Source: Pseudaminobacter soli (ex Zhang et al. 2022) (GTDB taxonomy: Bacteria; Pseudomonadota; Alphaproteobacteria; Rhizobiales; Rhizobiaceae). From it: a stretch of DNA of 64,000 nucleotides. Within the stretch, counting starts at the first letter, position 1. Every line of letters starts with the position of its first letter. The notes under the pieces are model-generated. The model was not told where the DNA came from and did not search any database. It saw only the letters and a list, made by a program, of their open reading frames with translations. The position numbers and the translations under genes are program-made. The DNA is taken from contig NZ_JABVCF010000015.1 in the NCBI RefSeq assembly GCF_014595955.1, forward strand, positions 1-64,000. The letters are read 5' to 3'. Below, one piece after another: positions 8,326 through 29,852 of the stretch.

Positions 8326-8335
8326 TGCCGCCTCC

Positions 8336-13270: not shown

Positions 13271-13290
13271 GTAAGTATTCTTTTACAACG
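13271..13290. promoter_or_regulatory. Putative TetR operator A (upstream of hyuB)
   Basis: GTAAGTATTCTTTTACAACG is the weakest member of a set of six related palindromes. Left arm GTAAGTA is intact and the right arm keeps TTAC only. It lies 32 bp upstream of the HyuB ATG in the 314-bp divergent gap 13239-13552, which also holds operator B. Confidence 0.55.
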
Positions 13291-13387
13291 GACGTTGTCA
13301 ATGGCCCTTCGCCTCGGCATGCGACTCTTCACACCCCTGCTGAACTGGCGGAGCCCTGGCATCACCGGCGCTTGACAGCTCGCTCTT

Positions 13388-13407
13388 GTAAGTATCCTAT
13401 TACTTAC
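13388..13407. promoter_or_regulatory. Putative TetR operator B (upstream of first Liv-type binding protein)
   Basis: GTAAGTATCCTATTACTTAC is a perfect 7-bp inverted repeat (GTAAGTA/TACTTAC) with a 6-bp spacer. It lies 145 bp upstream of the binding-protein gene at 13553. The rest of the divergent gap 13239-13552 shows no gene. Confidence 0.75.
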
Positions 13408-13552
13408 GCAGCATCACCGCTGCGGGCGCTGTGAAATTATGAGCTGTGAAGCCCACTCTCCGATGCGCCGCGCAACGGTTCACCGGAAGCGGCGGAGCCA
13501 TGCCCAGTTTTGCGGCGTCGCATGAGGGCCTTCGTCCATCGGGAGTGAGCGC

Positions 13553-14704
13553 ATGAAGAACCGCATCGTATTGGCCGCATCAGCCTTGGCGCTGGCGCTG
13601 TCCTGTTCCACCAGTTACGCCGACACCATCAAGATAGGGGTGAATCAGCCCCTTACCGGGGCGGTCGCGGCGTCCGGCAATTACGTGACGAACGGCGCCA
13701 GGATTGCCGCTGACCAGATTAACGCCGCCGGCGGCGTCCTGGGGCAGCAGATCGAGCTGGTGATCGAGGACAACAAGAGCAATCCGACCGAAGCGGCCGC
13801 CGTTGCCGAGAAGCTCATCGTGCGTGACGAGGTTCCAGCCATGATGGGAGCATGGGGTTCGACCCATACGCTGGCGGTGATGCCCAAGCTGATGGAGTAT
13901 GAGGTTCCGATGGTGGTCGAGACGTCGTCGTCCGGCAAGATCACCACGTCGGGCAATCCATGGGTCTTCCGGATCGCCCCGACCAGCAAGATGCTTGCCG
14001 CCTCGTTCGCACCGTTCGTCCAGAAGTTCGGGATGAAGAAGGCCGCGTTCCTGGCCGTCAACAATGACTGGGGTCTCAGCAACACCAACGCCTATTCGGA
14101 CATGCTGACCGAGCAGGGCGTGCCCACCGAATTGCGCGAGACGATGGACGCCACTGCCGTCGATGTCTCCTCGCAGCTTGCCAAGATCAAGGCCTCGGAC
14201 GCCGACACCCTGCTGGTAACCACCGAGATCGAACAGCTCACGCTGATCTTCAAGCAGGCTCAGGCGCTTAAGCTGCCGCAGCGCATCATCGCCACGACCA
14301 CCTCCTCCACGCCGGACCAGGCGATCGACCATGCTGGCTCGGCCGCCGACGGCGCCTTCTTTACCGTGCTGTTTGCGCCCTGGTTCCCGGAAATGGCGCC
14401 GAACCCCGACATCGCGCGCGGCTTCGCGGAGGAATGGGAGAAGCGGGACTACGTCTTTGCAGGACGCATAGAAGGCCAGCGCGGCTACGACGCCATCCTC
14501 ACGATCGCCGCAGCGATTCAGAAAGCCGGCAAGGCCGAGCCTGACGCCATCCGCAAGGCCCTATGGGAGGTGGAGGTGAAAGGCGTCAACAGCAATGTGA
14601 AGTTTTTCAAGGAAGGCCCCGAAGGCCAGGAGAGCGGCCAGAACAATGCCAACATCTTTGTCGTCCAGGTCAAGGACGGCAAGGTGGTGAAGCCGGAGTT
14701 CTGA
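13553..14704 (+). CDS. Liv-type ABC transporter substrate-binding protein (first paralogue)
   Basis: 383 residues with a signal peptide (~23 residues ending SYADTIK) followed by KIGVNQPLTGAVAASGNYVT, the start of a Peripla_BP_6 (LivJ/AmiC-like) binding domain. It is a close paralogue of the binding protein at 26114-27262, sharing VEDNKSNP-EAAA-AEKLI-RDEV and DADTL-VTT. It stands alone on the plus strand with its own putative TetR operator, so it presumably feeds the LivHMGF system encoded at 22602-26020. Two binding proteins on one permease suggest two related ligands. The ligand is unlikely to be simply leucine given the catabolic context. Confidence 0.88.
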   Translation: MKNRIVLAASALALALSCSTSYADTIKIGVNQPLTGAVAASGNYVTNGARIAADQINAAGGVLGQQIELVIEDNKSNPTEAAAVAEKLIVRDEVPAMMGAWGSTHTLAVMPKLMEYEVPMVVETSSSGKITTSGNPWVFRIAPTSKMLAASFAPFVQKFGMKKAAFLAVNNDWGLSNTNAYSDMLTEQGVPTELRETMDATAVDVSSQLAKIKASDADTLLVTTEIEQLTLIFKQAQALKLPQRIIATTTSSTPDQAIDHAGSAADGAFFTVLFAPWFPEMAPNPDIARGFAEEWEKRDYVFAGRIEGQRGYDAILTIAAAIQKAGKAEPDAIRKALWEVEVKGVNSNVKFFKEGPEGQESGQNNANIFVVQVKDGKVVKPEF

Positions 14705-14719
14705 ACGGAGTGGAGTATG

Positions 14720-14754
14720 GGCTGCTGCGCGGGCCGGCGGCACGCGCAGCAGCC
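14720..14754. terminator. Hairpin between convergent operons
   Basis: A perfect 12-bp stem (GGCTGCTGCGCG with CGCGCAGCAGCC) and an 11-nt loop lies in the 63-bp gap between the binding-protein stop (14704) and the stop of the minus-strand Mo-hydroxylase operon (14768). No T-run follows, so it may act as a bidirectional or Rho-assisted terminator. Confidence 0.6.
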
Positions 14755-14767
14755 GCGCTCCCGCAGA

Positions 14768-15955
14768 TCAGCGTGAGAACAGCTTCCGAATGGTCGCGCC
14801 CAGCCACGATTTCAGGGCTGTGGCCATGCTTCCCGCAAGACGCAGTTCCCTCGGCTGCTGAGTTGCATTTGGCGCTTCCTCTGGCGACAGCGAGCGCTTC
14901 AGATTGTCGGCGAACTGCGCGGTGATCGCCGCGATGAAGTGGGTTACGATGCCGCCCCGGGCAAATTGGCCGAGTGCGCCCGACAACGAGTAGGTGACCT
15001 CAAGATCGACCCGCGTCGCTGCGCCGCCATTCATCTCATGCAACGCATAGCTGAGCTCACCTCGCGCCAGCGAGCCACTACGCTCGTCGCGGCCCGATCC
15101 GTGAATGACGCCGGTCAGCATGTCGTCATTCCGCTGCTGGTTGGCCGTGCCAGCGAATTGCGCGCCGATCGGCCCCATTTTGACGCGCATGCTGACCTGG
15201 AAGTTTCCGTCATCGGTGCGGCCGACCAGGGAGGCGCCGGGGATGCAGGGCACCATCGCGGGCACGTCGCCGAATCGGCTCCAGACCGTCTCGGGCGGAA
15301 ATTCGATGACGAAGGATTGCTTCACGGAGGGTGCCGTGGCCGCAAGCTTGCCCAGCTTGGCAGACTTGGGACTCGAGGCAGGAATCGGCGGCGTCATTGC
15401 CTGACGCGGCTTGGCCTCCGTCACCTGGCCGTGCCCGGAGCCTGCCGGGCCAAGACCCTGAGGAGCGCCTAGAGAGGGGGCCGTGCCGGCGGCTTGGCGC
15501 GCAAGCACGACGGAGCGGATCGCCTTTACGATCCCGGCGTAGCCTGTGCAGCGGCAAAGATTTCCTGCCAGCTCGAGCCGGATGCGTTCCTCGTCAGCGT
15601 CTCCGAGCCGCTCGACGATGTCTCGCGCCATGACCAGCATGCCAGGCGTACAGAAGCCACATTGCAGGGCGTGATGTTTGTTGAACGCCTCGCGCAGTTC
15701 GCCCATCAACGGATCGGCGTCGAAACTCTCGATGGTACGCACGTCGGCGCCGCTGCAGGACACGGCGGTGCTGATGCAGGAGCGCACCGGGACGCCATCG
15801 ACAAACACAGTGCAGGCGCCGCAGACACCTTGTTCGCAGCCCAGATGAGTGCCTGTCAGATTCAGGTTTTCGCGCAGCAGATCGGCCAGGCTGGTTCGCG
15901 GCTCGACATGCTCCGCTACCGGCAAGCCATTCACGGTGAGCCGGAGGCCGTTCAT
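14768..15955 (-). CDS. Mo-hydroxylase [2Fe-2S] small subunit fused to a CoxG-like domain
   Basis: 395 residues in two parts. Residues ~1-150 are a CoxS/XdhC-type two-cluster iron-sulfur subunit. GCEQGVCGACTVFVDG plus a later Cys carry the plant-type cluster, and CGFCTPG and CRCTGY carry the four-helix-bundle cluster. After a Pro/Ala/Gly-rich linker (~155-210), residues ~213-350 form a SRPBCC/CoxG domain (SFVIEFPPETVWSRFGDV, CIPGASLVG). A basic amphipathic tail (MATALKSWLGATIRKLFSR) could bind the membrane, as proposed for CoxG. The small subunit passes electrons from the Mo subunit to FAD. The two parts are usually separate genes. The start overlaps the FAD-subunit stop by 4 bp. Last gene of the 22396-14768 operon. 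Confidence 0.85.
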   Translation of the reverse strand: MNGLRLTVNGLPVAEHVEPRTSLADLLRENLNLTGTHLGCEQGVCGACTVFVDGVPVRSCISTAVSCSGADVRTIESFDADPLMGELREAFNKHHALQCGFCTPGMLVMARDIVERLGDADEERIRLELAGNLCRCTGYAGIVKAIRSVVLARQAAGTAPSLGAPQGLGPAGSGHGQVTEAKPRQAMTPPIPASSPKSAKLGKLAATAPSVKQSFVIEFPPETVWSRFGDVPAMVPCIPGASLVGRTDDGNFQVSMRVKMGPIGAQFAGTANQQRNDDMLTGVIHGSGRDERSGSLARGELSYALHEMNGGAATRVDLEVTYSLSGALGQFARGGIVTHFIAAITAQFADNLKRSLSPEEAPNATQQPRELRLAGSMATALKSWLGATIRKLFSR

Positions 15956-16791
15956 GCAATCACCTGTTCCAGAGCGCGCGCAAAGGCATTGCCATGCATG
16001 GCGTCCGTGATCGGGTCGTCGTCGATGCCGAGGTCAGCCACACGATCGCGGGCGCGCGCGAGAGCCGCTCCATTCGGCGCTGAAGACTCCCCGCCTCCGC
16101 GAAGAAGATCGCGGATATCATCGAGAACGAGAGGCCTGGACTGGGTTGCGCCGATGACACCGCGGTAGATGTTCAGCGCGGGATCGATAACTACGGCTGC
16201 CATCGCCTCGGCGAACTCACCGCGCTTGCGGCAGAACTTGTAATAGCCAAATCGGGCAGCCGGCGAAAACTTCCGGATCCGAATGCCGGCCAGGAACTCA
16301 CCATCGTCGAGATGAACGCCGAAAGCCATCATCATGAAGGCTTCCAGCGCGACGCGGCGTTCGCCCTGCGCCGTTGCCACGATAAGTTCCGCGTCGAGCG
16401 CAGTTAGCGTCGTGATCCAGTCCGCGGCGGGGTCGGCGTGGACCAGGCTGCCACCGATCGTACCGCGGTTCCGTACAGCGCGATAGGCGATGCCGCCCGC
16501 GACCCGGCGCAGGAATCCGTTGGCTGGATCCGGCACCCGGCCATCTTCGAACGCGGCATGGGTGATGCAGGCGCCGAAGACCACAGCATCGCGTTCCTCT
16601 GTAACCATCGTCAGAGCCGGAATTGCAGTGATGTCGACGATCTGCTCCGGCTGCGCCAAGCGAAGGTTGAGCATTGGCCCGAGCGATTGGCCCCCGGCCA
16701 TGATCTTGGCGCCACCCGCACCCTCGTTCAGCAGTTCGATCGCCTCCGGGATGGTTCCCGGGCGGCTATAACGAAAATCAACGGGCTTCAT
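15952..16791 (-). CDS. Mo-hydroxylase FAD-binding medium subunit (CoxM-like)
   Basis: 279 residues of the FAD-binding_5/CO-dehydrogenase flavoprotein C family. MAGGQSLGPMLNLRLAQP (~31-48) and TIGGSLVHADPAADW (~111-125) are the two FAD pyrophosphate-binding motifs. It accepts electrons from the iron-sulfur subunit and passes them on, probably to the quinone pool or a cytoplasmic acceptor. Overlaps both neighbours by 4 bp, so the three subunits are translationally coupled. Confidence 0.9.
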   Translation of the reverse strand: MKPVDFRYSRPGTIPEAIELLNEGAGGAKIMAGGQSLGPMLNLRLAQPEQIVDITAIPALTMVTEERDAVVFGACITHAAFEDGRVPDPANGFLRRVAGGIAYRAVRNRGTIGGSLVHADPAADWITTLTALDAELIVATAQGERRVALEAFMMMAFGVHLDDGEFLAGIRIRKFSPAARFGYYKFCRKRGEFAEAMAAVVIDPALNIYRGVIGATQSRPLVLDDIRDLLRGGGESSAPNGAALARARDRVADLGIDDDPITDAMHGNAFARALEQVIA

Positions 16792-19151
16792 TGCGCGACG
16801 GCTCCAGCGGCTTTCGCCCGAGCCTCGGCGATTGCCGAAAGCAGCCGGTGGGGTGTTACCGGCGTGGTCGCGACCTCGGCGCCCAATGGCCGCAACGCGT
16901 CATTGATTGCATTGGCGATCGCAGCCGGCGGTGCGATGGCGCCGCCTTCGCCGATGCCCTTGACGCCATGCGCCGTGAATGGCGAAGGCGTCTCCATGTG
17001 AACAATCCTGATATCCGGCACCTCGCATGGACCCGGAATGATATAGTCCATGAAGGTCGAAGCCAGCGGCTGACCGTCGGCGTTATAAGGCGATTCCTCA
17101 TACAGGGCGGTGCCGATCCCCTGGGCTACGCCACCCAGGATCTGGCCGTCCACGATGAGCGGGTTGACCAACGTGCCGCCGTCTTCCACCACGACGTAAT
17201 CGAGGATATCGACGGCGCCGAACTCGGGATCCACCGCCACGACGGCCGCATGGGTGGCATAGCTGAAGGTACCGCTGTCGACCTTGGGCTTGTAACCGGC
17301 GGTGACCTCCAGCCCCTCGGGAGCCACGTCGGCCGGCAGGGTCTCCGGCCGCTTGTACCAGGCATTAGCGATCTCGGCGAAGGTGACGCTGCCTCCCGCC
17401 GCCATGACCTTGCCATCGGAAACCGTGACCTGGTCCGGCGAAGACTGGAGCAGATGCGCTCCGATCACCTTGGCCCGTTCCGCGATGATCTCGCACGCGC
17501 GCGACACCGCCCCGCCTGCCATGACCATGGACCGCGACCCCCAGGTGCCGGTGGAATACGGTGTCAGCGCGGTGTCGCCATGCACCAGGTTGATCTGCGC
17601 GGGATCTATGCCGAGGATTTCGTTGGCGACCTGCGCCATCGAGGTTTCCATGCCTTGTCCATGAGAATGGACGCCGATACGCAGCTCCAGTCCACCGTCC
17701 GGCGTTACCCTTGCCGTTGCCTGCTCGAAGCCGGGCACCATCGGTATCCCCCAGCCCGAGTAGACCGTGGTGCCGTGGGCTGCCTGCTCGCAATAGGTGG
17801 CAAAGCCAATGCCCAGCAGACGCCCGTCATCCCCAGCGCTCCCTTGGCGGGCGCGCAATGCGGGCAGGTCGATCGCTTCGACGGCCTTGCGCACGCTTTC
17901 GGGATAGTCACCGCTGTCGAACAGCTTTCCGGTGATGTTGGTGAACGGCATCTGTTCGGGCCGGACCAGGTTGTCCAGCCGCACCTGCGATGGCTCGCGC
18001 CCGGCTTCACGCGCGATCGCATCCACGATCAGCTCGATCGCAAAGCACACACCCGTGCGGGCTACACCGCGGTAGGGCGTGAAGGGCGGCTTGTTGGTGG
18101 CGACCGAAACCGTACGGCAGGCGTAGTAAGGCATCACATAGGGGCCCGGCAGGATGCTGGCGATCTGCGCCGATTCCAGGCAGGCCGAGAACGGCCAGAC
18201 GGAGTATGCGCCGACATCGACGGCGACGTCGGCTTCAATGCCGAGCAGCCGGCCCTCGGCGTCAGCATAGCCAGTGATCCGGTAGTGATGCTCGCGCGTG
18301 TTCGCGGCGGCAACCAGGTGCTCGCGGCGATCTTCGAGCCAGCGAAACGGACGCCTGCGCGTCATCGCCAGCCATGCGATACAGACTTCCTCCGGCTGCA
18401 GGATACATTTGAACCCGAACGCGCCGCCGACATCCGGCGCAACGACATGGATCTGCCGTTCCTCGAGACCGAGGCATTCGGCGAGTCCGGTCCGCATCAT
18501 GTGCGGCAACTGGGTCGAGGTGTAGACGACGAGTTGGTCGAGACGTGAATCCCACCACGCCACCGTGCCCTTCCCCTCCAGCGGAGCCATGCACTGACGG
18601 CTCAGCCTTATCTCCCGCTCCACCTTGATCGCTGCATTGTCGAGGACGGCGCGGTCGCCCTTTTCGATCTTTGTCTCGAGATAGATGTTGTCGGCCCAAT
18701 CCTCGTGCACGCGGACGGCGTCCACCGCCTGGGCCGTGCCGGTATCGGCGAGTACCGGCAGCGCTTCGATGTCCACGTTGACCCGGCTGACCAGGTCTTC
18801 CGCCTGCGCCCGGTTCTCATCGACGCACATCGCCACCAGTTCGCCTGCAAAGCGGACCGTGCCTGTCGCCAGCGGCGGCTGGCTGGAGGGCTTGAAGCCG
18901 GGCAATCCCGAAACGGCCCGGATCGGCTTCACCCCGGCCATATCGGCCGAGGTGAAAACCCGGCCGGCGCAGTCTTCGGGCACATCGACCGAGACGATCC
19001 TGCCATGTGCCAGCGGACTGCGCAGGAATGCAACGTCCTGGAGGCCCGGCATGGAGATGTCTCCGACGAAAAGGCCGCGGCCGCGCATCAGCCGATCGTC
19101 TTCCTTGCGAGGAAGGCGTGCGCCAATGCCGACATTGGCTCTCTCGTTCAT
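16788..19151 (-). CDS. Molybdenum hydroxylase large subunit (CoxL/XdhB-like, not a CO dehydrogenase)
   Basis: 787 residues. The N-terminal hammerhead domain (ARLPRKEDDRLMRGRGLFVG) is followed by Mo-cofactor-binding domains, with VVAPDVGGAFGFK around residue 240 and SHGQGMETSMAQVANE in the C-half. The catalytic glutamate is E735 in GVKGIGEGGAIAPP. The active-site loop reads PYRGVARTGVCF and lacks the AYxCSFR signature of true CO dehydrogenase, so it should hydroxylate a carbon next to nitrogen or an aldehyde, as xanthine, nicotinate or quinoline oxidoreductases do. Soluble LMS heterotrimer. It needs Mo cofactor maturation genes that are not in the window. The substrate is unknown. Confidence 0.88.
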   Translation of the reverse strand: MNERANVGIGARLPRKEDDRLMRGRGLFVGDISMPGLQDVAFLRSPLAHGRIVSVDVPEDCAGRVFTSADMAGVKPIRAVSGLPGFKPSSQPPLATGTVRFAGELVAMCVDENRAQAEDLVSRVNVDIEALPVLADTGTAQAVDAVRVHEDWADNIYLETKIEKGDRAVLDNAAIKVEREIRLSRQCMAPLEGKGTVAWWDSRLDQLVVYTSTQLPHMMRTGLAECLGLEERQIHVVAPDVGGAFGFKCILQPEEVCIAWLAMTRRRPFRWLEDRREHLVAAANTREHHYRITGYADAEGRLLGIEADVAVDVGAYSVWPFSACLESAQIASILPGPYVMPYYACRTVSVATNKPPFTPYRGVARTGVCFAIELIVDAIAREAGREPSQVRLDNLVRPEQMPFTNITGKLFDSGDYPESVRKAVEAIDLPALRARQGSAGDDGRLLGIGFATYCEQAAHGTTVYSGWGIPMVPGFEQATARVTPDGGLELRIGVHSHGQGMETSMAQVANEILGIDPAQINLVHGDTALTPYSTGTWGSRSMVMAGGAVSRACEIIAERAKVIGAHLLQSSPDQVTVSDGKVMAAGGSVTFAEIANAWYKRPETLPADVAPEGLEVTAGYKPKVDSGTFSYATHAAVVAVDPEFGAVDILDYVVVEDGGTLVNPLIVDGQILGGVAQGIGTALYEESPYNADGQPLASTFMDYIIPGPCEVPDIRIVHMETPSPFTAHGVKGIGEGGAIAPPAAIANAINDALRPLGAEVATTPVTPHRLLSAIAEARAKAAGAVAQ

Positions 19152-19195: not shown

Positions 19196-20425
19196 TTACG
19201 CCTCTTCGTGCTCCGCCAAAACCAGCTTGCGATACTGTTCGGGGTCGGTGGCGCCTTCGCAATTGATGACCAGAACCTTCGCCGTATGGTCAAGGCCGAA
19301 AAGCTGACGCGCCTTCGGGTCGTCGCACAGGGCAAGAAGACCGGCCAGGCCCGCACCTCCGGTTTCACCGGCAGTGATTGCTGGATCGCCATCCAGAGGC
19401 TTCGCGAGGAGGCGCATGGCCGCGACTGCCGCATCGTCCTCGATGCGCACGAAGCCGAATGCACCGGAATCGATCGTCGGCCATGCGAGATGCGACACGG
19501 CAGCACAGGACAGGCCGCCCATGATGGTCTCCAGGTCGCCGCCAACGACCGTCGAGTTTCCTTCGACGGCGCTGGCGAACACGCAGTCGGCCTTGATCGG
19601 CTCCACGATGATGAATTTCGGCGCCCGGTTTCCGAGCAACTGATGGAGCGAAGAGATCATCGCCGCGGCAAGGCCGCCGCACCCCGCCGTCAACATCATG
19701 TGGGTGGGCAGGTCATCGCCCAATTGGGCTACGAACTCCTGCGCCATCACCGAGTAACCGGTCATGCAAAGCGCCGGAATCTTAGTGTAGTGGGGAGTGG
19801 CGGAATCCGAGATCATCATCGCGCCGGGATTGACGTTCGCGTCCTGCTCCGCGGCCTCGTACGCCTCGTCGTAGATTCCGTCGATCCGGACCACCTCGGC
19901 GCCTTCGTCCCGCAGTGCCTGCTCCCGGCCCGGGCTGACGCCGGCGGGGATGTAGATGCGCGCGTGGCAACCCATCCGGCGCGCCGCGCTGGCAACCGAG
20001 AACCCGTGATTGCCGTCGGTTGCGCAGACCAGGCTGACATCGGCCAAGGCTTCGCGGTATTTGCCCTGCAGAAGGTCGAGGTCCGATACCGGCGTGTCGA
20101 GGCGGCCAGCCAGCAGGTCCAAAACTTCGCTGACCGCCGCGAACACCGCGCCGAGCGCCTTGAAGCTCGCAAGGCCGAGCCGCCGGCTCTCGTCCTTGCA
20201 GACAAGGGCACCAAGTCCCAGTCGCGCGGCTGCTCCAGGAAGCCGGTGCAGCGGCGTGACCTGATACTGTGGCCATCCGCCGATCCGGGCCTTTGCCTTA
20301 CGCGAATCGTCGGCGGTAAAGCCGCTGAGATCCGCCAGCCGCGATGAGTTCGCGTCGATCCGCGCGTTGAGCATCGCGGAGCCCTTGAATTGTCCGGCCA
20401 GTTGCAGAATTCGTTCTTCCGCCAT
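19196..20425 (-). CDS. Diaminopropionate ammonia-lyase-like PLP enzyme
   Basis: 409 residues of PLP fold type II. The Schiff-base lysine is K89 in LGLASFKALG. CATDGNHGFSVA (~133-144) carries the family Asp and the Asn of the substrate loop, and GGLAAAMISS (mid) with AGETGGAGLAGLLAL (late) are the phosphate-binding Gly loops. The family eliminates ammonia from 2,3-diaminopropionate to give pyruvate and two ammonia, and relatives act on other beta-substituted alanines. Within this operon it probably deaminates an intermediate after ring opening. The gap to the Mo subunit gene is 44 bp. Assigning exact DpaL activity would be premature. Confidence 0.8.
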   Translation of the reverse strand: MAEERILQLAGQFKGSAMLNARIDANSSRLADLSGFTADDSRKAKARIGGWPQYQVTPLHRLPGAAARLGLGALVCKDESRRLGLASFKALGAVFAAVSEVLDLLAGRLDTPVSDLDLLQGKYREALADVSLVCATDGNHGFSVASAARRMGCHARIYIPAGVSPGREQALRDEGAEVVRIDGIYDEAYEAAEQDANVNPGAMMISDSATPHYTKIPALCMTGYSVMAQEFVAQLGDDLPTHMMLTAGCGGLAAAMISSLHQLLGNRAPKFIIVEPIKADCVFASAVEGNSTVVGGDLETIMGGLSCAAVSHLAWPTIDSGAFGFVRIEDDAAVAAMRLLAKPLDGDPAITAGETGGAGLAGLLALCDDPKARQLFGLDHTAKVLVINCEGATDPEQYRKLVLAEHEEA

Positions 20426-20494: not shown

Positions 20495-21526
20495 TCAGTG
20501 CTCGGGTTCCAGGACGATCTTGCCGAAGACGCCACGGCCCTCTGCCATCCGATGTGCTTCGGCTGCATCCTTGAGCGGCAGCTTGGCGCCAATGATCGGG
20601 CGGAGCTTCTTGGCTTCCAGCAGTTTGATGATCGTCGAAAGCTCGTTCATGGTTCCATGATTCGAGCCGATGATGGTGAGTTGCTTGTGCCAGACATGGG
20701 CGGCGTTCATGGTGACCCGATAGCCCGACGAGGCGCCGCAGGTGACCAGACGGCCGAAGCGGGTCAGGCTCATGATGCTGTCTTCCCACACGTCGGCACC
20801 GATGTGTTCGAAGACCACGTCGACACCGCGCTTGTCGGTCAGCCTGCGCACTTCCTCACGGAAGTTCTGCTTCTTGTAGTTGATCATGTAGTCGGCGCCG
20901 AGTTCGAGACCCTTCTCGCATTTCTCGTCGCTACTTGCAGTCCCGATTACCCGCAGGCCGTGCAGCTTGGCGATCTGGAGCGCTGCCAGGCCGATACCGC
21001 TTCCGACCGCATGGATCAGGATGTCCTCGCCCGCACGGATATTGGCGCGGGCCAACTTGTGCCACGCGGTCAGGAACGTGATGTTGGTGGCGGCGCACTC
21101 GGCGAAATCGAGGCCCTTGTACATCGGGATCAGGTTCTGCGCCCGCACCGTGCAATACTGGGCATACCCACCCCAGAGGGCCGAGCCATAGTACTTGTAA
21201 TTCAGGCAGACATTCGGCTCGCCGCGACGGCACGACTCGCAAGTTCCGCAGCCGACGGTGGCATAGACGACGACTGGATCGCCGACTTTGACATTGGTGA
21301 CGTCGGAGCCGATCTCGGCGACCTCGCCGGCGATGTCGCCGCCAGCAATATGCGGAAAGCCCTTGTTGGGACGGTACTCGCCCTTGCGTCCGATGATGTC
21401 GAACCAGTTTACAGACGTCGCCTTCACCTTGATCAGCGCATCCGTGCGGCCGAGCGGAATTGGATCGACGTCCTCGTACTTCAGAACGTCCGGGGTACCG
21501 TACTCGTGATAGAGTGCAGCCTTCAT
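20495..21526 (-). CDS. Medium-chain dehydrogenase/reductase (zinc-binding, quinone reductase/enoyl reductase-like)
   Basis: 343 residues of the MDR superfamily. CGTCESCRRGEPNVC (~94-108) supplies four cysteines of the structural zinc site. The NAD(P) Rossmann segment (AVGSGIGLAALQIAKLHGLR) is around 170-190. The catalytic zinc ligand is not obvious in the position expected for alcohol dehydrogenases (SVNWFDIIGRKG in place of a Cys-containing motif), which favours a reductase of double bonds over an alcohol dehydrogenase. It sits between the PLP enzyme and the DUF1445 protein in the same operon. Confidence 0.82.
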   Translation of the reverse strand: MKAALYHEYGTPDVLKYEDVDPIPLGRTDALIKVKATSVNWFDIIGRKGEYRPNKGFPHIAGGDIAGEVAEIGSDVTNVKVGDPVVVYATVGCGTCESCRRGEPNVCLNYKYYGSALWGGYAQYCTVRAQNLIPMYKGLDFAECAATNITFLTAWHKLARANIRAGEDILIHAVGSGIGLAALQIAKLHGLRVIGTASSDEKCEKGLELGADYMINYKKQNFREEVRRLTDKRGVDVVFEHIGADVWEDSIMSLTRFGRLVTCGASSGYRVTMNAAHVWHKQLTIIGSNHGTMNELSTIIKLLEAKKLRPIIGAKLPLKDAAEAHRMAEGRGVFGKIVLEPEH

Positions 21527-22426: not shown

Positions 22427-22446
22427 CTAAGTAATAAGTTACTTAC
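22427..22446. promoter_or_regulatory. Putative TetR operator C (upstream of DUF1445/Mo-hydroxylase operon)
   Basis: CTAAGTAATAAGTTACTTAC contains the core AAGTAA-N4-TTACTT as a perfect 6-bp inverted repeat. It lies 30 bp upstream of the ATG at 22396, where a bound repressor would block RNA polymerase or initiation. Confidence 0.78.
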
Positions 22447-22530
22447 TTGCGTGCCGGCCGTCAACACAATGTCAAGCGTGCGAGCAAAAAACTTTAGGTT
22501 GCGCCGCGTTTGCGGCTCAGTCGCGGTCGG

Positions 22531-22601: not shown

Positions 22602-23327
22602 TCAGCCCTCGTCACCGAGATAGGCTCGCCGGACATGCTGGTCGCGGATCAGATCCTCGCCCCTGCCGTGAAGCGCAATCTGCCCGGACTCCAGCAGGAA
22701 GGAACGATCGCACATCTCGAGCGCGGCGTAGGCATTCTGCTCGACCATGAGGACCGTTGTACCCTGTCGATTGATCTCCATGATGTAGTCGAAGGTCTTC
22801 TGCACGTTGTTGGGAGCCAGACCGAGCGATGGCTCGTCGAATATGACCAGCTTCGGCCGTGACATCAGGGCGCGCCCGATGGCGAGCATCTGCTGTTCTC
22901 CGCCGGAAAGAGTTCCGGCGGCCTGGCCGCGCCGTTCGCCGAGAACCGGGAAGCGATGATAGACGCCGTCCATGTCATCGGCGATCTGCTTCCGGTCGTT
23001 ACGACGATAGGCGCCGATTTCCAGGTTCTCCTCCACGGTCATGAAGGGGAAGATCCTGCGGCCTTCCGGGCAATGGGCGATGCCCATTTCGAGGATGCGA
23101 CGCGGCGATGCATTGGTGATGTCCTCCCCGAGGAAGGAGATTCGGCCGGAGACGGGCGGAAGGAGGCCGGAAATGGCGCGCAGAGTGCTGCTCTTTCCGG
23201 CACCGTTGGCGCCGATCAGCGTGACAAGTTCGCCTTGCTTCACGTCTACCGAGACTTTGTGAAGGACATTGGCCTTGCCGTAGCGGCACTCGATGTTCTC
23301 GACCTCAAGCATGCTTTTGCGCTCCAT
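22602..23327 (-). CDS. Liv-type ABC transporter ATPase (LivF-like)
   Basis: 241 residues. Walker A GANGAGKSS (~39-47), signature LSGGEQQMLAIGRAL (~140-154), Walker B KLVIFDEPSLGLAP (~160-173) and the switch histidine replaced within VLMVEQNAYAAL, as usual for LivF. It overlaps the LivG-like gene by about 23 bp, and a start 5 codons later would still overlap. It energises import with the LivG-like ATPase. Last gene of the operon 27262-22602. Confidence 0.92.
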   Translation of the reverse strand: MERKSMLEVENIECRYGKANVLHKVSVDVKQGELVTLIGANGAGKSSTLRAISGLLPPVSGRISFLGEDITNASPRRILEMGIAHCPEGRRIFPFMTVEENLEIGAYRRNDRKQIADDMDGVYHRFPVLGERRGQAAGTLSGGEQQMLAIGRALMSRPKLVIFDEPSLGLAPNNVQKTFDYIMEINRQGTTVLMVEQNAYAALEMCDRSFLLESGQIALHGRGEDLIRDQHVRRAYLGDEG

Positions 23328-24102
23328 GGCCGAGATAGGCCCGCACCACTTCCGGGTTCTTCTGGATTTCGGCAGGCGGGCCGTTCGCGATGATCTTGCC
23401 GTGGTTGAGGACGACCACGCGATCGGAGACGCCCATCACCATCCTCATGTTGTGTTCGACCAGGAGGATGGTGATCCGCCGCTCGCTGATGCTTGACAGA
23501 AGTTTGCGGAAGCTAAGCGCCTCGGTCGGGTTCATGCCGCAGGCCGGTTCGTCCAGCAGCAGAAGCGACGGCTTGGCGGCAAGGGCGACGGCAATCTCCA
23601 GCAGCCGCTGCTCGCCATAGGCCAGCGAACCGGCGAGTTCCTCTCCCCTATGCCCGAGCCCAACGAAATCAAGGATTTCGCGGACTTCATCCCGCAACTG
23701 CCTTTCCCTGCGCCGGACCTTGGGAAGGGCCAGCAAGGTCTCCCATGTCGAGGCGGCGCTGACCCGATGCAAGCCGATCAGGACGTTCTCGAATACTGTG
23801 TTGTTGCCGAAGATGCTGGTTTTCTGGAACGTCCGCACCAATCCCGCCTCGGCGATCTCGTGCGGACGCAGGCCATTGAGGCGCTGCCCCCTGTAGACGA
23901 TCTCGCCCTGCGTGGCGCGAAGAAAGCCCGAGATGACGTTGAATGCCGTGGTCTTGCCGGCGCCGTTCGGTCCGATCAGGCTTACGATCTCGCCTTCATC
24001 GACGGCGAAGCTGGCATCGGAGATGGCTACCAGACCGCCGAAATGCACGGCGAGGTTATTGACGGCAAGAACAGGCGAGCCAGCCATGCTGTGCGTGTTC
24101 AT
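23305..24102 (-). CDS. Liv-type ABC transporter ATPase (LivG-like)
   Basis: 265 residues. Walker A GPNGAGKTTAFNVISGFL, signature SLAYGEQRLLEIAVAL and Walker B SLLLLDEPACGMNP, with the extra insert (REREQL-like region RRRERQLRDEV) typical of LivG. It overlaps the LivM-like stop by 4 bp. It heterodimerises with the LivF-like subunit on the cytoplasmic face of LivHM. Confidence 0.92.
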   Translation of the reverse strand: MNTHSMAGSPVLAVNNLAVHFGGLVAISDASFAVDEGEIVSLIGPNGAGKTTAFNVISGFLRATQGEIVYRGQRLNGLRPHEIAEAGLVRTFQKTSIFGNNTVFENVLIGLHRVSAASTWETLLALPKVRRRERQLRDEVREILDFVGLGHRGEELAGSLAYGEQRLLEIAVALAAKPSLLLLDEPACGMNPTEALSFRKLLSSISERRITILLVEHNMRMVMGVSDRVVVLNHGKIIANGPPAEIQKNPEVVRAYLGHGAQKHA

Positions 24103-25151
24103 CCCTCCTGCTCCTGGGGATTGCGGCCGAGCGACACGTTCGTCGCCACAACCTGGTCGCGCTTGCTACGGTATGCCGTCCACCACTTGTTGACCGCCGG
24201 CACGATGCCCTGGGGCAAGAAGTAGACGATCAGGATCATGAGCGCGCCATAGATCATCCATTGCACTTCCGGCACCGTGTGCCCCCGCAGGAATTCGGGC
24301 AGCAAGCCGAAGATCACGCCGCCGACCACCGGCCCAGCCAATGTCCCCTTGCCGCCGGACACCACCATGATGACCATGGTAACCGTGTAGATGAACAGGA
24401 AGACGTCGGGATCGACGATACGGACGTAGTGGGCGTACAGACCACCGGCTGCGCCGGCGATCGCGGCAGACGCGATCGCCGCGAGAACCAGATAGCGGGT
24501 CACATCGATACCGACGGACTTGGCCAATGCCTCGTTTTCCCGCAGCGCCACCATGGCCCGGCCAAGCCGGGACTGGATGATCCGCTTGATGACCAAGAAG
24601 GAGAATACGGCGACGCCCAGCACGATGTAGTAGTTGACGATCTTGCGCTGCAGCGGTCCGCTATCGAACCCGGGCAATGCAGTCGCGAGAGGCGGTATGT
24701 TGTTCAGCGCCATCGGACCTTCGGTCAGGTCGACCCAGTTCAGCGCGACCAGCCGCACCACTTCCGCGAAGCTGATGGTGACGATGACGAAATATGCGCC
24801 ACGGACCCGGAACGAAAGCTTGCCGATGAACCAGCCGCACAGGCCGGCCAGCGTAACGCTGCATATCAAGGAAAACCAGGCCGGCTTCGGCGCTAGTACG
24901 AAGGTGTAGGTTTCGGTGATCTGAATATCGAAGCCGAGCGAGACCAGCGCACTCGTATAGGCACCGATCCCGAAGAAGGCGACGTGGCCCAGGCTGAGTT
25001 GCCCCGTATAGCCGAGCAGCAGGTTCAGGCTCATTGCTCCGATGGTGAAGATCCCCATCATGATCAGGACATGGAAGAAATACTGGTCGTGCATGACGAG
25101 GGGCAGGCCAGCGAGTGCGGCCACGAAGAGCCATTGCATGGTCGTGGTCAT
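24099..25151 (-). CDS. Liv-type ABC transporter permease (LivM-like)
   Basis: 350 residues with eight to ten hydrophobic segments. LLGYTGQLSLGHVAFFGIGA (~44-63) is the conserved first cytoplasmic motif of LivM. GRAMVALRENEALAKSVGID (~193-212) is the coupling region contacting the ATPases. It overlaps the LivH-like stop and the LivG-like start by 4 bp each, showing tight coupling. It forms the channel with LivH. Confidence 0.92.
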   Translation of the reverse strand: MTTTMQWLFVAALAGLPLVMHDQYFFHVLIMMGIFTIGAMSLNLLLGYTGQLSLGHVAFFGIGAYTSALVSLGFDIQITETYTFVLAPKPAWFSLICSVTLAGLCGWFIGKLSFRVRGAYFVIVTISFAEVVRLVALNWVDLTEGPMALNNIPPLATALPGFDSGPLQRKIVNYYIVLGVAVFSFLVIKRIIQSRLGRAMVALRENEALAKSVGIDVTRYLVLAAIASAAIAGAAGGLYAHYVRIVDPDVFLFIYTVTMVIMVVSGGKGTLAGPVVGGVIFGLLPEFLRGHTVPEVQWMIYGALMILIVYFLPQGIVPAVNKWWTAYRSKRDQVVATNVSLGRNPQEQEG

Positions 25152-26020
25152 CCGATGCGCTCCGATCTTGCGAACAGTCCGGTGGGCTTGACCATCAGGA
25201 CCAGGATGATGAGCAGGAAGCCCATGGCGTCGCGATAGCCCGACGAGACGTAGCCGGCACCGAACTCCTCGACCAGGGCAAGGACAAACCCGCCAATGGC
25301 GGCTCCCTTCATGTTGCCGAGACCGCCCAGAATCACGATGGCGAACGCCTTCAGCACCGCCAAATTGCCCATCGTCGGCATGACGATGAAGATCGGGCCG
25401 AGCAGGGCGCCGGCTGCAGACGCAAGGCCCGAACCCAGTGCGAAGGTGGCGAGATAGATCACGTTGATATTGATACCCATGAGGGCTGCGGTATCGCGGT
25501 CCTGGAAGGTCGCACGCATGGCCTTGCCCAGTCGCGTGCGCTGGATGATCGTCTGCGCCAGGATTATCAGCGCAATGGCGACGACGAAGACAAAGACGCG
25601 AGACCAGGCAACCGAGACCAGGCCCAACGAAAGCGGCTCTTCGGGGAATGGCGTGGGTATCGACTTGGCAACTCCGCTCCAGATGAGTTGCTCGCCATTC
25701 TGCATGATGATCCAGGCGCCGATCATCACCAGCATCGTGGTGTCGACGTCGGCGCCGCGCAGCTTCCGCAGGAGCGTGTATTCGATGGCCGCGCCGAGCA
25801 GCACCCCGAGAACGATGGCTATGGCGATCGCCAGCAGAAAGTTGACGCCGAGGATCACCGAAAACAGATAAACCATGTAGGCGCCGAACGTGTAGAGCTC
25901 GCCATGAGCGAAGTTCACGACACGCATGATGCCGAAGATGAACGTCAGGCCTATCCCTAGCAGGGCGTAAGTGGACCCTAATATGATGGCATTGACGAGA
26001 TGCTGCAGGAGCTGTTCCAA
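25148..26020 (-). CDS. Liv-type ABC transporter permease (LivH-like)
   Basis: 290 residues, around eight membrane helices, with ILGSTYALLGIGLTFIFGIM at the N-terminus and VNFAHGELYTFGAY typical of LivH, plus the coupling motif RLGKAMRATFQDRDTAALMG. The best start is TTG at 26020, since no upstream ATG gives a sensible N-terminus. A strong hairpin lies between it and the binding-protein gene upstream, which would lower permease expression relative to the binding protein. Confidence 0.9.
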   Translation of the reverse strand: MEQLLQHLVNAIILGSTYALLGIGLTFIFGIMRVVNFAHGELYTFGAYMVYLFSVILGVNFLLAIAIAIVLGVLLGAAIEYTLLRKLRGADVDTTMLVMIGAWIIMQNGEQLIWSGVAKSIPTPFPEEPLSLGLVSVAWSRVFVFVVAIALIILAQTIIQRTRLGKAMRATFQDRDTAALMGININVIYLATFALGSGLASAAGALLGPIFIVMPTMGNLAVLKAFAIVILGGLGNMKGAAIGGFVLALVEEFGAGYVSSGYRDAMGFLLIILVLMVKPTGLFARSERIG

Positions 26021-26084: not shown

Positions 26085-26113
26085 AGACCTTCGCGCACGA
26101 AGCTTGAGTTCGC

Positions 26114-27262
26114 TTAGAGGTTAGGAAGGGACAGCTTTCCGTCCTTGATCTGGACGACGTACACGTTTGGCAGGTTCTGGCCGCTTTCGCTGCCCTCGAC
26201 GCCGGCCTTCTCGAACTTGATGTTGCCGTTCACGCCCTTGACGTCGATCTCCCACAATGCCTTGCGTATGGCCTCCCGGTCCGGCGCTCCCGCCTTCTCG
26301 ATGGCGGCGGCAAGCGCCGTGACAGCGTCATAGCCCCGGAACCCGTCGGAGAGGCCGGAGGCATCATAACCCTTGCCGTTCCAGGCATCGATGTAGCGCT
26401 TGGCGACCTCCGGATTTGCCGCGGCATCAGGGAACCAAGGGGCGAAGAACAGAATATGCAGGCTGCCTTCGGCAGCGGATCCAAGCTGTTCGACAAGTCG
26501 ATCGGGGAACTGAGACCCTCCGGTCGTGATAATGCGCCTATCCAGACCCTGCGCCTTGGCCTGCTTCAGCACCAGGCTGAGTTGCTCGAACCCGGTGGTC
26601 ACGAACAGCGTGTCCGCGTCCGAGCTCTTGATCTTTGCGAGTTGCGCGGAGACATCCTGCGCAGCCGGATCCATGGTTTCTACCATGCCGGTAGCAACGC
26701 CGCTCGCTTCCAGCATTTTTTTGAACTCGGCGGAAGCACCGAGCCCCCAATCGTTGTTGACGACCAGGAAATCGGCTTTCTTGACTCCGATTTGGCCGAC
26801 CATCGGCGAGAAGGCCTTTGCCTCCATCTCCGAAGTCGCGGAAATGCGGAAGACCCACGGGTTGCCTGCGCTGGTGACCTTGCTGGACGAGGCGGTCTCC
26901 ACGACCATCGGCACGCCATACTCTTCCAGCTTGGGCATGACCGCGAGCGTGAAGCTCGAGCCCCAAGCGCCCACCATCGCTGAAACCTCGTCGCGCGTGA
27001 TCAGCTTTTCGGCAGCGGCAGCGGCTTCGCTGGGGTTGCTCTTGTTGTCCTCGACGACCAACTCGATCTGCTCGCCCAGCACGCCACCATTGGCATTGAT
27101 GGCCTCGGCTGCTAGCTTCGCGCCGTCGGTTATGAAGTTGCCTGACGCGGCGACGGAGCCTGTTAGAGGCTGATTAATGCCGATTTTGATCGGGTCTGCC
27201 GACGCGCTGCTGGCCGCCAACACCAGCGCGAACGCGGCAAGCGTAGAATTGAATGCCTTCAT
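26114..27262 (-). CDS. Liv-type ABC transporter substrate-binding protein (second paralogue)
   Basis: 382 residues from the ATG at 27262, with signal peptide (LAAFALVLAASSASADPI) and mature start KIGINQPLTGSVAASGNFIT. Peripla_BP_6 family. It is highly similar to the orphan binding protein at 13553-14704. The ATG at 27262 is preceded by GGGAGGAC. The longer frame back to 27316 would include the operator at 27281-27300 and is rejected. First gene of the livJHMGF-type operon. A putative TetR operator lies only 18 bp upstream of the start. Confidence 0.9.
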   Translation of the reverse strand: MKAFNSTLAAFALVLAASSASADPIKIGINQPLTGSVAASGNFITDGAKLAAEAINANGGVLGEQIELVVEDNKSNPSEAAAAAEKLITRDEVSAMVGAWGSSFTLAVMPKLEEYGVPMVVETASSSKVTSAGNPWVFRISATSEMEAKAFSPMVGQIGVKKADFLVVNNDWGLGASAEFKKMLEASGVATGMVETMDPAAQDVSAQLAKIKSSDADTLFVTTGFEQLSLVLKQAKAQGLDRRIITTGGSQFPDRLVEQLGSAAEGSLHILFFAPWFPDAAANPEVAKRYIDAWNGKGYDASGLSDGFRGYDAVTALAAAIEKAGAPDREAIRKALWEIDVKGVNGNIKFEKAGVEGSESGQNLPNVYVVQIKDGKLSLPNL

Positions 27263-27280
27263 ATTGATGTCCTCCCTGAC

Positions 27281-27300
27281 GTAAGTAATAAAACACTTAC
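27281..27300. promoter_or_regulatory. Putative TetR operator D (upstream of liv operon)
   Basis: GTAAGTAATAAAACACTTAC has arms GTAAGTA and CACTTAC (one mismatch to perfect dyad) with the same 6-bp spacer as operator B. It lies 18 bp upstream of the binding-protein ATG, in a 180-bp divergent gap shared with operator E. Confidence 0.75.
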
Positions 27301-27371
27301 AAGGGAATCCTGTCAACAGGTCGTTTGGCCTGGGGACAGAGGGAGCACCCGTTCGGGCAGCTTGACATTGG

Positions 27372-27391
27372 ACAAGTAAGAAGTCACTTCA
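27372..27391. promoter_or_regulatory. Putative TetR operator E (upstream of acyl-CoA ligase)
   Basis: ACAAGTAAGAAGTCACTTCA keeps AAGTAA-N4-TCACTT, one mismatch from a perfect 6-bp dyad. It lies about 51 bp upstream of the ligase start on the plus strand. Confidence 0.65.
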
Positions 27392-27442
27392 ACGCGAATT
27401 GGGCCAGCCCATAGGCCCGCTCGGCGCATTTTCTCAGGTTCT

Positions 27443-29074
27443 TTGACCGTGTCAAAAAAAGCCTCCTACCGCCAAGACCTTGACCAGAATTCTGCCAACT
27501 ATGTCCCACTTAGCCCCGTTTCGTTTCTCGCGCGTTCGGCTCGGGCCTTCCCCGAGAAGATTGCGGTCGTTGATGGCGATCGGCGGTTCACGTATCGCGA
27601 ATTTCAGCAACGATGCCTGAGGCTGGCCTCAGCACTGGAACGGTCAGGCGTACAGGAGGGCGATACGGTTGCCGTTCTCGCTCCGAACGTGACAGCTCTG
27701 CTTGAAGCCCACTATGGCGTACCCATGCTGGGCGCAGTACTGAACGCCCTGAACACACGCCTCGACGCCGCGTCCATTGCCTTCTGCCTCGGCCATGGCG
27801 AAGCCAAGATAGTCTTGGTCGATGCCGAATTCGTTGGCTTGATTGATGCCGCCTTGGCCGCAGCCGGTTTGTCGATTCCGGTCGTAGTTATTGCACTCGA
27901 ACCAACAAGCTCCGCTAGTCAAGCCGACTACGAAGCATTTCTCATGACCGGTGATCCGGCGGGCCCGCGAACTCAAATTGCGGATGAGTGGACGGCGATC
28001 ACACTCGGCTATACGTCTGGCACCACAGGCGATCCCAAGGGGGTCGTCTGCCACCACCGCGGAGCCTATCTAAATGCACTCGGCAATGCACTAGCCGCGC
28101 GCTTGGAGCCGGAAGCGGTCTACCTCTGGACCCTTCCGATGTTTCACTGCAACGGTTGGAGCCACACATGGGCTGTCACGGCGGTCGGCGGTACACATGT
28201 ATGCCTGCGCAAGGTCGAGCCAGTTCGCATCTTCGAGTTGATTGAGCGCGAGAAGGTGACCCATATGAGCGCCGCTCCGGTTGTGCTCAATATGCTGGCT
28301 CACGCCCCCGAGATCGCAGGCCTTCGTTTTGACTGGGGAATAAACATCTTGACGGGCGGATCGGCGCCGCCGACCGCGGTGATGACGGCAATGGAAGGTG
28401 CCGGCTTCAACGTCATGCACATTTATGGCCTGACAGAGAGCACTGGACCGAGCTTGATCTGTGAATGGCACCAAGACTGGAACGGCCTGCCTCTGCAAGC
28501 ACGTATGCAGTTGAACGCACGGCAGGGCGTCAATCTGGTCACGCTCGAAGACGCGATGGTAGCCGATCCCGACAGTTGCAGCGAAGTACCGTCCGACGGC
28601 GCTACGATGGGCGAGATCATGCTACGCGGCAGCACAATCATGATGGGCTATCTGAAGAACCCGTCAGCCAGCGCCAAGGCGTTCGCCGGCGGCTGGTTCC
28701 ATACTGGCGACCTTGCCGTGCGTCATCCCGACGGTTACATCGAGATCAAGGACCGCGCCAAGGACGTCATCATCTCGGGCGGCGAGAACATCTCCTCAGT
28801 TGAGATCGAGGAAATTCTCTATAGGCATCCCGCGATCTTGGAGGCCGCTGTGGTTTCACGGCCGGATCCGAAATGGGGCGAGCACCCTTGCGCCTTCGTC
28901 AGCTTCAAGGAAGGCGCAACGCCGCCCGGGTCTGAAGAACTGACAGAATATTGCCGCGCCAATCTAGCCCGGTTCAAAGTGCCGAAAACCTTCGTATTCG
29001 GTACGTTACCCAAAACCTCGACCGGCAAGATCCAAAAGTTCCTGCTGCGGCGACAGGCGCAGGCACTGACTTAA
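27443..29074 (+). CDS. Acyl-CoA ligase (AMP-forming, DmdB/medium-chain type)
   Basis: 543 residues of the ANL superfamily. AMP-binding P-loop GYTSGTTGDPKGVV (~190-203), motif HIYGLTEST (~328-336), GWFHTGDLAV (~417-426) and catalytic C-terminal lysine in KTSTGKIQKF. It activates a carboxylic acid as acyl-AMP and transfers it to CoA. Length and motifs resemble 3-methylmercaptopropionyl-CoA ligase and medium-chain fatty-acyl ligases. Alternative starts are TTG 27443 or GTG 27449, with no ATG nearby. It is divergent from the liv operon and 16 bp from the convergent TetR gene, within the same putative TetR regulon. Confidence 0.87.
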   Translation: MTVSKKASYRQDLDQNSANYVPLSPVSFLARSARAFPEKIAVVDGDRRFTYREFQQRCLRLASALERSGVQEGDTVAVLAPNVTALLEAHYGVPMLGAVLNALNTRLDAASIAFCLGHGEAKIVLVDAEFVGLIDAALAAAGLSIPVVVIALEPTSSASQADYEAFLMTGDPAGPRTQIADEWTAITLGYTSGTTGDPKGVVCHHRGAYLNALGNALAARLEPEAVYLWTLPMFHCNGWSHTWAVTAVGGTHVCLRKVEPVRIFELIEREKVTHMSAAPVVLNMLAHAPEIAGLRFDWGINILTGGSAPPTAVMTAMEGAGFNVMHIYGLTESTGPSLICEWHQDWNGLPLQARMQLNARQGVNLVTLEDAMVADPDSCSEVPSDGATMGEIMLRGSTIMMGYLKNPSASAKAFAGGWFHTGDLAVRHPDGYIEIKDRAKDVIISGGENISSVEIEEILYRHPAILEAAVVSRPDPKWGEHPCAFVSFKEGATPPGSEELTEYCRANLARFKVPKTFVFGTLPKTSTGKIQKFLLRRQAQALT

Positions 29075-29090
29075 GACGGACAGCAGTGCG

Positions 29091-29783
29091 TCAGGACGTC
29101 GTCGGCGCGCAGAGATAGCACATGATGACCTCAAGCACGTGACGCCTGCGGCTCTCGAGCCATTGCGTGTCGGTCAAGTCGACCTGCAATGTCCAGGACA
29201 TGGTGTGTTTGTTGGCGAGATGAACCCAGCACAAGGAAAAGATCGACAGCCAAAGCTGTATCGGATCCGGCTTCCGGCGGAAAACACCTGTTTCGTAGCC
29301 GTTGTCTAGTAACGACTTAACGGAACTCGAGAGCTTCGTGGTCATCATTGGGACCAGATCAGACTTCTTCAAATAGGTGGCACGCTGGATGTTTTCGTTC
29401 ATCACGATCCTGATCAGGTCCGGATGCTCGGCAAAATGGGTGAATGTGAAGTCGACTAAGCGCTCGAGCCCCTTCTTGGGATCGTCTTCCTCTATATGGA
29501 GGTCCTGCTCGGCCGAGCGCACGTCGCGGTACACCTCTTCGATGACCGCGATGTAGAGTTGCTCCTTGTCGTGGAAATAGTGGTAGAGCAGCCGCATGTT
29601 GGCATTTGCAGTCTTGGCGATCGATTCGACCCGGGCACCACTAAATCCCTTTTCAGCAAATTCGGCGACAGCTGCGTCCAGGATTCGCTTTTTAGTGGCC
29701 GCGGGATCGCGCGGGATGTAATCGTATTTTCGGCCTGCCCTGCTTCGCTTTGCTTCTTTGCGCCTTTCAGGCATATCGGTCAT
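29091..29783 (-). CDS. TetR-family regulator, candidate controller of the 7.5-29.8 kb cluster
   Basis: 230 residues. The N-terminus is basic (residues 1-25, RRKEAKRSRAGRK). The TetR helix-turn-helix spans ~30-75 (AATKKRILDAAVAEFAEKGF, VESIAKTANANMRLLYHYFH). The C-terminal ligand domain resembles the TetR_C/CerR-like class of RutR relatives (HFAEHPDLIRIVMNENIQRA). RutR itself senses pyrimidines. A perfect palindrome lies 49 bp upstream of its ATG and five similar ones precede the other units of the cluster, so it very likely represses itself and the whole cluster, with an intermediate as inducer. The basic N-terminal arm could contact the minor groove of the AT-rich operator. Confidence 0.88.
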   Translation of the reverse strand: MTDMPERRKEAKRSRAGRKYDYIPRDPAATKKRILDAAVAEFAEKGFSGARVESIAKTANANMRLLYHYFHDKEQLYIAVIEEVYRDVRSAEQDLHIEEDDPKKGLERLVDFTFTHFAEHPDLIRIVMNENIQRATYLKKSDLVPMMTTKLSSSVKSLLDNGYETGVFRRKPDPIQLWLSIFSLCWVHLANKHTMSWTLQVDLTDTQWLESRRRHVLEVIMCYLCAPTTS

Positions 29784-29832
29784 ATCGCGTTCCTAATGTT
29801 CAGTCGTGCCTGATCGCAGCAACGAGCACGAC

Positions 29833-29852
29833 TGAAGTAATCCCTTACTTAG
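29833..29852. promoter_or_regulatory. Putative TetR operator F (autoregulatory)
   Basis: TGAAGTAATCCCTTACTTAG carries a perfect AAGTAA-N4-TTACTT dyad and lies 49 bp upstream of the TetR start codon, the arrangement expected for autoregulation. Confidence 0.78.

Follow-up and report, generated by a model that had tools for sequence, protein, structure and literature searches.

What controls the 18-gene catabolic cluster of Pseudaminobacter soli (ex Zhang et al. 2022), and do the palindromes in front of its transcription units belong to the TetR-family regulator encoded beside them? The stretch analysed, called the window here, comprises the first 64,000 nucleotides of contig NZ_JABVCF010000015.1 (assembly GCF_014595955.1). 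An earlier note on this DNA had described six near-identical 20-bp sites between 13271 and 29852 and assigned them to the product of tetR, a gene at the end of the cluster. Our analysis makes it probable (about 0.87) that the six sites are operators of this local, autoregulated TetR-family repressor, which would act by promoter occlusion.

In the mechanism that we infer, a TetR dimer would bind a 20-bp imperfect palindrome with a consensus of about GTAAGTAATNNATTACTTAC and would cover the spacer and the -10 region of each promoter. RNA polymerase would be shut out of six transcription units (18 genes), tetR's own included, whose predicted functions are import, activation, ring opening, oxidation, coenzyme A (CoA) transfer and regulation. 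A compound of the pathway, probably the substrate or an acyl-CoA intermediate, would release TetR.

Six palindromic sites and their promoters

The window was searched with the core pattern AAGTAA-N4-TTACTT; the 20-mers of the earlier note begin 2 bases before this core. The core was found at all six named places, and each site precedes its own transcription unit (Table 1). The cores of sites A to F start at 13269, 13390, 22429, 27283, 27374 and 29835 and contain 3, 1, 0, 2, 1 and 0 mismatches, respectively. The six sites are related, but "near-identical" was too strong a term for them in view of these mismatches and of dyad pairing at only 5 of 10 positions in A and E. The perfect arms described for B (7 bp) and for C and F (6 bp) were read from the sequence as reported. 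Site A is present, but its best register lies four bases to the left of the reported 13271: positions 13267-13286 scored 20.8 on a matrix of the six sites versus 12.8 at 13271, and an overlapping register of the core at 13273 likewise has 3 mismatches. Apart from the six sites, the sole similar place in the window was 18124, with 3 mismatches and within the gene for the molybdenum subunit, in agreement with the earlier statement that no similar site occurs elsewhere. Overlapping registers shifted by 4 bp (GTAAGTAAGTAA) were seen in several operators, including window positions 22427-22450 and the corresponding sites in two relatives. At operator C the second register, 4 bp to the right, scored 15.8. 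Such registers may leave room for more than one bound dimer.

At up to 3 mismatches the window contained nine matches to the core versus a mean of 2.85 in shuffled sequence, and none of 100 shuffles reached nine. Throughout the 6.1-Mb genome, all four places with at most 1 mismatch lie inside the cluster, as do 5 of the 18 places with at most 2 mismatches (56 for the reversed pattern); the stretch 13271-29852 represents 0.27% of the genome. Since the pattern was derived from these same sites, the genome-wide count involves some circularity, and tests on other sequence therefore weigh more. Ten of the 13 outside places with at most 2 mismatches were scored with the six-site matrix and reached at most 15.7, versus 19.4 for the weakest of the six. 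Over 144 kb of the contig, the six sites were the top six separate places and the next scored 12.1. When each site was left out of the matrix in turn, it still ranked between 1 and 7 in the 144 kb, overlapping registers included.

The cluster was then compared with its counterparts in Aminobacter aganoensis (G753) and in genome G621, using 80 kb around the cluster in each. Among 394 genomes of the family, these two carry the TetR orthologues (73-75% and 72-73% identity, respectively; next match 45%). The remaining three genomes of the genus to which the window belongs, one of which is just 85% complete, gave no match to this TetR at E<=1e-60. All 18 genes of the block are present in both relatives at 63-91% protein identity. 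Of the 19 window genes outside the block that were queried (1019-6535 and 30830-48787), none matched at 60% or more in the 80 kb; the reach of the predicted operators therefore coincides with the conserved unit. When the 80 kb were scanned with a matrix that contained no sites other than the six of the window, the first ranks in each relative went to the promoters of hyuB, binding protein 1, DUF1445, livK and the ligase gene (scores 18.6-29.3); elsewhere the highest score was 10.8 in one relative and 12.1 in the other (within the ligase gene of G621). In a three-genome alignment of intergenic DNA, the 20-mers of A to D were conserved at the identities given in Table 1, versus 20-28% outside them. 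At operator A, the 24 bases of TAAGTAAGTATTCTTTTACAACGG are identical in all three genomes; the core of operator D is unchanged in A. aganoensis and has one change in G621. The separate units, the retention of the sites in two relatives and the position of TetR as sole regulator gene of the shared block support the reading of a TetR regulon given in the earlier note.

Promoter elements were located at 16 sites of the three genomes, which form orthologous sets and are not independent, by taking the best TTGACA-like hexamer on the gene strand in an interval that began 22 bp upstream of the core and ended 9 bp inside it. In 13 of the 16 promoters, among them five of the six in the window, TTGAC[A/G/T] was found 6-14 bp upstream of the core, and in 12 of these the distance was 11-14 bp. 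As background, 8504 positions were taken from ten intergenic stretches of the window, site-bearing ones included, and 151 of them had TTGAC 5-16 bp upstream. The three promoters lacking it are that of the window tetR, with ATGACA at 13 bp, and the ligase promoters of the two relatives, in which the site overlaps the best hexamer. From the operator centre to the start of the -35 box we counted 25-28 bases in 12 of the 13 TTGAC promoters and 20 bases in the ligase promoter of the window. The operator centre is therefore placed over the spacer or the -10 region, and a dimer bound there would keep RNA polymerase out.

The TetR regulator, its relatives and other explanations

The tetR product contains an N-terminal helix-turn-helix domain (PF00440, 51.0 bits; cut-off 24) and a C-terminal TetR_C_29 domain (PF17938, 121.3 bits; cut-off 26.2). 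Together with predicted palindromic operators at target promoters and, in the window, one of its own, these features place it in the TetR/AcrR family. It matched 18 NCBIfam models (RutR, FadR, BetI, AcuR and others), none at its cut-off: 53.4 bits for RutR (TIGR03613, equivalog cut-off 368), 54.2 for FadR of the Bacillus type (NF053878, cut-off 200) and 36.5 for AcuR (NF051457, cut-off 247). The nearest solved chain, 3npi, is titled just TetR family regulatory protein.

The gap of 49 bp between site F and tetR had been given correctly, and the autoregulatory layout drawn from it holds for the window but not for the relatives. In both of these, tetR directly follows the ligase gene in the same orientation, and in the 450 bp upstream of it the closest approach to the core had 4 or 5 mismatches; the sole weak matrix match there (12.1, p 0.02) was in G621, inside the ligase gene. 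The window tetR is inverted and convergent with the ligase gene, 16 bp apart, and has its own promoter with the perfect core of site F. An inverted tetR needs a promoter of its own, and precisely there it has its own operator. In the relatives, the position of tetR suggests that it is autoregulated through the ligase promoter.

In addition to the window tetR and its two orthologues, 98 more distant TetR relatives were compared in their upstream DNA, namely 27 and 11 loci and 60 further matches hand-picked before their upstream DNA was viewed. They were classed by the residue after the conserved Asn of the recognition helix: M, I or V, as in the window TetR (M/I/V, 16 relatives), K (79) or another residue (3). 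Values of p for the matrix are from 200 shuffles each and are uncorrected; close relatives, for example L089-L091, are to be taken as a single case. In the M/I/V class 11 of 16 relatives matched the window matrix at p<=0.01, and the motif-bearing relatives share 38-50% identity with the window TetR. The core with at most 2 mismatches lay upstream of 7 of 16 M/I/V versus 16 of 79 K relatives. The form GTAA-N4/8-TTAC, or a longer version of it, was found at 8 of 16 M/I/V and none of 79 K relatives (0.2% of shuffles). Palindromes of the form TAAC-N1-7-GTTA were found at none of 16 M/I/V and 38 of 79 K relatives (for example L049, L055-L060, L062 and L130; 0.9% of shuffles), and may be a second class of operator in this TetR family. 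The three relatives with another residue had neither form. An exact core lies upstream of relative L093, and in L118 one lies 2 kb away. The same operator type occurs before the own genes of TetR relatives in other families, one of them in another order, and regulators related to the window TetR appear to be accompanied by it.

At L115 and L116 the TetR relative adjoins a liv-type importer operon, with a site in the common intergenic region; L117 is arranged likewise and has a weaker site (matrix score 21.7), and at L112, L114 and L119 TetR has no adjoining liv-type importer operon. L115 also contains homologues of hyuAB and DUF1445 (30-47% identity) and in this distantly resembles the window. 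In genome G038, a second exact core forms part of a site at L031 1499-1518 (contig 157), which scored 30.1 and is directly followed by a Shine-Dalgarno-like AGGGAG and an ATG; a different contig of this genome carries the TetR relative with an exact site of its own. The L031 site is a probable second target in G038.

Several observations weigh against the assignment of the sites to TetR. Five of the 16 M/I/V relatives (L048, L050, L088, L094 and L095) had no site within 500 bp upstream, and 14 of the 79 K relatives also matched at p<=0.01, with scores of at most 18.8 and through a related half-site. In a tree of all 101 proteins, the M/I/V and K classes are split by a single change; the difference is therefore one between clades, and the Fisher values are not evidence of independent events. 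The residue as an independent specificity code was rejected on this ground. The exact core is present in 23 of 397 genomes of the order, and at the 22 loci examined (of 24 foreign places) no TetR relative was encoded within 1.5 kb (E<=1e-3), so that an exact core taken by itself is mostly a chance occurrence. Site E is a weak site that does not align base by base (15% identity, 143rd of 179 windows); a site does precede the ligase gene in both relatives, with the stronger half on the opposite side from that of site E. In searches of the whole genomes with the strict pattern at up to 1 mismatch, the cluster holds both of two places in G621 and one of two in G753, and the matrix ranking of the relatives' sites covers only 80 kb each. 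A promoter consensus scan did not flag these promoters because their -10 boxes are poor; the scan for promoters and terminators gave no more matches than shuffles.

The sites could be operators of another regulator encoded elsewhere, with tetR merely a target, for a site in front of a regulator gene shows merely that the regulator is regulated. A candidate exists in a second TetR of the family, 109 kb away with 37% identity (contig 7: 139030-139659, outside the window), and the DNA before it holds the next-best separate matrix place in 144 kb, though a far weaker one (12.1). We nevertheless consider this explanation improbable: TetR is the sole regulator gene common to the three syntenic clusters, and its relatives have operators of this type in front of the genes that encode them. 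The second TetR has a K-type recognition helix, and the site upstream of it (138856-138875) reads GTAACTAGGTAGTTGGTTAC, a related but different operator-like sequence in line with the K-type class. It is therefore an unlikely alternative regulator.

A few TetR-family proteins activate transcription, and the poor -10 boxes resemble those of activator-dependent promoters. That TetR activates the cluster, or both activates and represses it, is given an equally small chance, as the operator centre lies over the spacer or -10 region, a position that would block the polymerase. That the sites are a dispersed repeat or AT-rich promoter elements arisen by chance, a reading to which the AT-richness of sites in promoters of a window with 59-66% G+C and the average yield of the shuffled window at 3 mismatches might point, was rejected as hardly conceivable, since the sites are concentrated in the cluster, stand seven bits above the next place in 144 kb, outscore the ten outside places scored and are kept in relatives although the surrounding DNA has diverged.

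The catabolic cluster and its possible substrate

Under control by the local TetR repressor, the predicted regulon would comprise the genes listed in Table 1.

Table 1. Positions in the window of the cluster genes, predicted operators and -35 boxes, with scores on the six-site matrix and three-way identity of the 20-mers.
Feature	Position	Strand	Matrix score	Identity	Remarks
Two-subunit CoA-transferase	7546..9307	-			Subunit 8336-9307 nearest glutaconate CoA-transferase 1poi
hyuA	9314-11434	-			ATP-dependent hydantoinase/lactamase-type pair with hyuB
hyuB	11451-13238	-			Start read from sequence; nearest solved chain 7hk5, N-methylhydantoinase
Operator A, hyuB promoter	13267..13286	-	20.8	95%	
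-35 box TTGACA, hyuB	13296..13301	-			11 bp from core; same in both relatives
-35 box TTGACA, binding protein 1	13372..13377	+			12 bp from core; spacing same in both relatives
Operator B, binding protein 1 promoter	13388..13407	+	27.0	60%	Site in both relatives
Binding protein 1	13553..14704	+			Peripla_BP_6
Three-subunit molybdenum hydroxylase	14768..19151	-			Molybdenum (Mo), flavin adenine dinucleotide (FAD) and 2Fe-2S subunits
Diaminopropionate ammonia-lyase-like enzyme	19196..20425	-			Pyridoxal phosphate (PLP) enzyme; NF006058 406.7 bits (cut-off 276); nearest solved chain 4d9g
Zinc-type alcohol dehydrogenase/enoyl reductase-like protein	20495..21526	-			
DUF1445/D-glutamate cyclase family	21566..22396	-			PF07286 191.1 bits; NF003969 367 bits (cut-off 324)
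Operator C, DUF1445 operon promoter	22427..22446	-	29.9	90%	
-35 box TTGACG, DUF1445 operon	22459..22464	-			14 bp from core
livH, livM, livG, livF	22602..26020	-			Branched-chain-type ABC transporter
livK-type binding protein 2	26114..27262	-			Peripla_BP_6; start codon at 27262 read from sequence
Operator D, liv operon promoter	27281..27300	-	27.9	90%	
-35 box TTGACA, liv operon	27311..27316	-			12 bp from core
-35 box TTGACA, ligase	27362..27367	+			6 bp from core
Operator E, acyl-CoA ligase promoter	27372..27391	+	19.4		Weakest of six
Acyl-CoA ligase	27443..29074	+			Pfam AMP-binding; NF006020 815.6 bits (cut-off 677); exact start unsure
tetR	29091..29783	-			230 amino acids; TetR_N and TetR_C_29, Pfam profiles above cut-offs
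Operator F, tetR promoter	29833..29852	-	22.7		No counterpart in two relatives

These enzymes, together with the E. coli and Rhizobium daejeonense gene neighbourhoods described below, suggest that the substrate of the cluster may be a cyclic ureide, a lactam or another N-heterocycle. The hyuA/hyuB pair scored 557.3 and 302.6 bits with the NCBIfam models of caprolactamase CapAB, below the cut-offs of 1000. At 14768-15955, the 2Fe-2S subunit of the molybdenum hydroxylase is fused to a CoxG/SRPBCC-like domain. On plasmid NZ_CP048425.1 of Rhizobium daejeonense (L180), a homologue of the ammonia-lyase (44%) adjoins genes for dihydropyrimidinase, an N-carbamoyl hydrolase and a zinc hydrolase, a neighbourhood that suggests ring-opened ureides and a route from ureide to diaminopropionate. 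A second plasmid neighbourhood of the ammonia-lyase contained no related genes, and when plasmids were searched with TetR, HyuB, the ammonia-lyase and DUF1445, within the E-value limits used, every relative found was below 60% identity.

No description of this cluster or regulator was found in the literature covered, which mostly leaves out subscription journals, and the exact operator strings gave no relevant match. In the accessible part of an association study of nodule competitiveness in Sinorhizobium meliloti, the COGs include diaminopropionate ammonia-lyase, molybdenum hydroxylase and glutaconate CoA-transferase, their adjacency not being evident there (PMC8407117).

More tentatively, and with the odds rather against it, we propose a joint reading in which the operators bound a portable 18-gene unit for an undescribed compound. 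The TetR clade would keep the GTAAGTAA operator across families, and its sister clade, distinguished by a single residue of the recognition helix (M/I/V to K), would have switched to TAAC..GTTA. The compound would be an N-heterocycle, cyclic ureide or lactam that is converted to a diaminopropionate-like amino acid and a glutaconate-like acid.

Significance and comparison with known systems

The system appears to be a local TetR regulon, a well-known kind, and its interest would lie mainly in the pathway controlled. A precise regulon was predicted from raw sequence: one repressor, six promoters, 18 genes and one 20-bp consensus. The inducer of the repressor would point to the substrate of the catabolic cluster, and a biosensor could be built from the regulator and its operators. 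The operator type also hints at the motif recognised by an entire TetR subgroup, some members of which are encoded beside liv-type importers.

RutR, the regulator of a TetR regulon of pyrimidine catabolism in the accessible part of PMC5343134, resembles the proposed regulator as a TetR-family repressor of a nitrogen-compound catabolic regulon. The window TetR matches its profile in part, far below the equivalog cut-off. The RutR operator, TTGACCA..TGGTCAA, is unlike that of the window. LiuQ, FadP and PsrA, TetR-family regulators of acid degradation whose sites were found by comparative genomics, are similar in governing CoA-linked catabolism, but LiuQ and FadP are described as unique to betaproteobacteria in the accessible part of the same source (PMC5343134). 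QacR and CprB are TetR proteins that bind as pairs of dimers. Some window operators, with two or three overlapping registers, could likewise fit more than one dimer; the shift is 4 bp and occurs in some sites only.

The E. coli yge/xdh region, in the accessible part of its description (PMC2276186), brings together a diaminopropionate ammonia-lyase, a hydantoinase and a molybdenum hydroxylase, the same three kinds of enzyme as the window cluster. The hydantoinase of the window differs in being of the ATP-dependent HyuAB type. Enzymes like those of the E. coli region are reportedly the subject of a paper on a reductive urate pathway. The 18 genes of the window include no carbamoyltransferase, carbamate kinase or M20 hydrolase, and the cluster has in addition a CoA ligase, a CoA-transferase and a liv importer.

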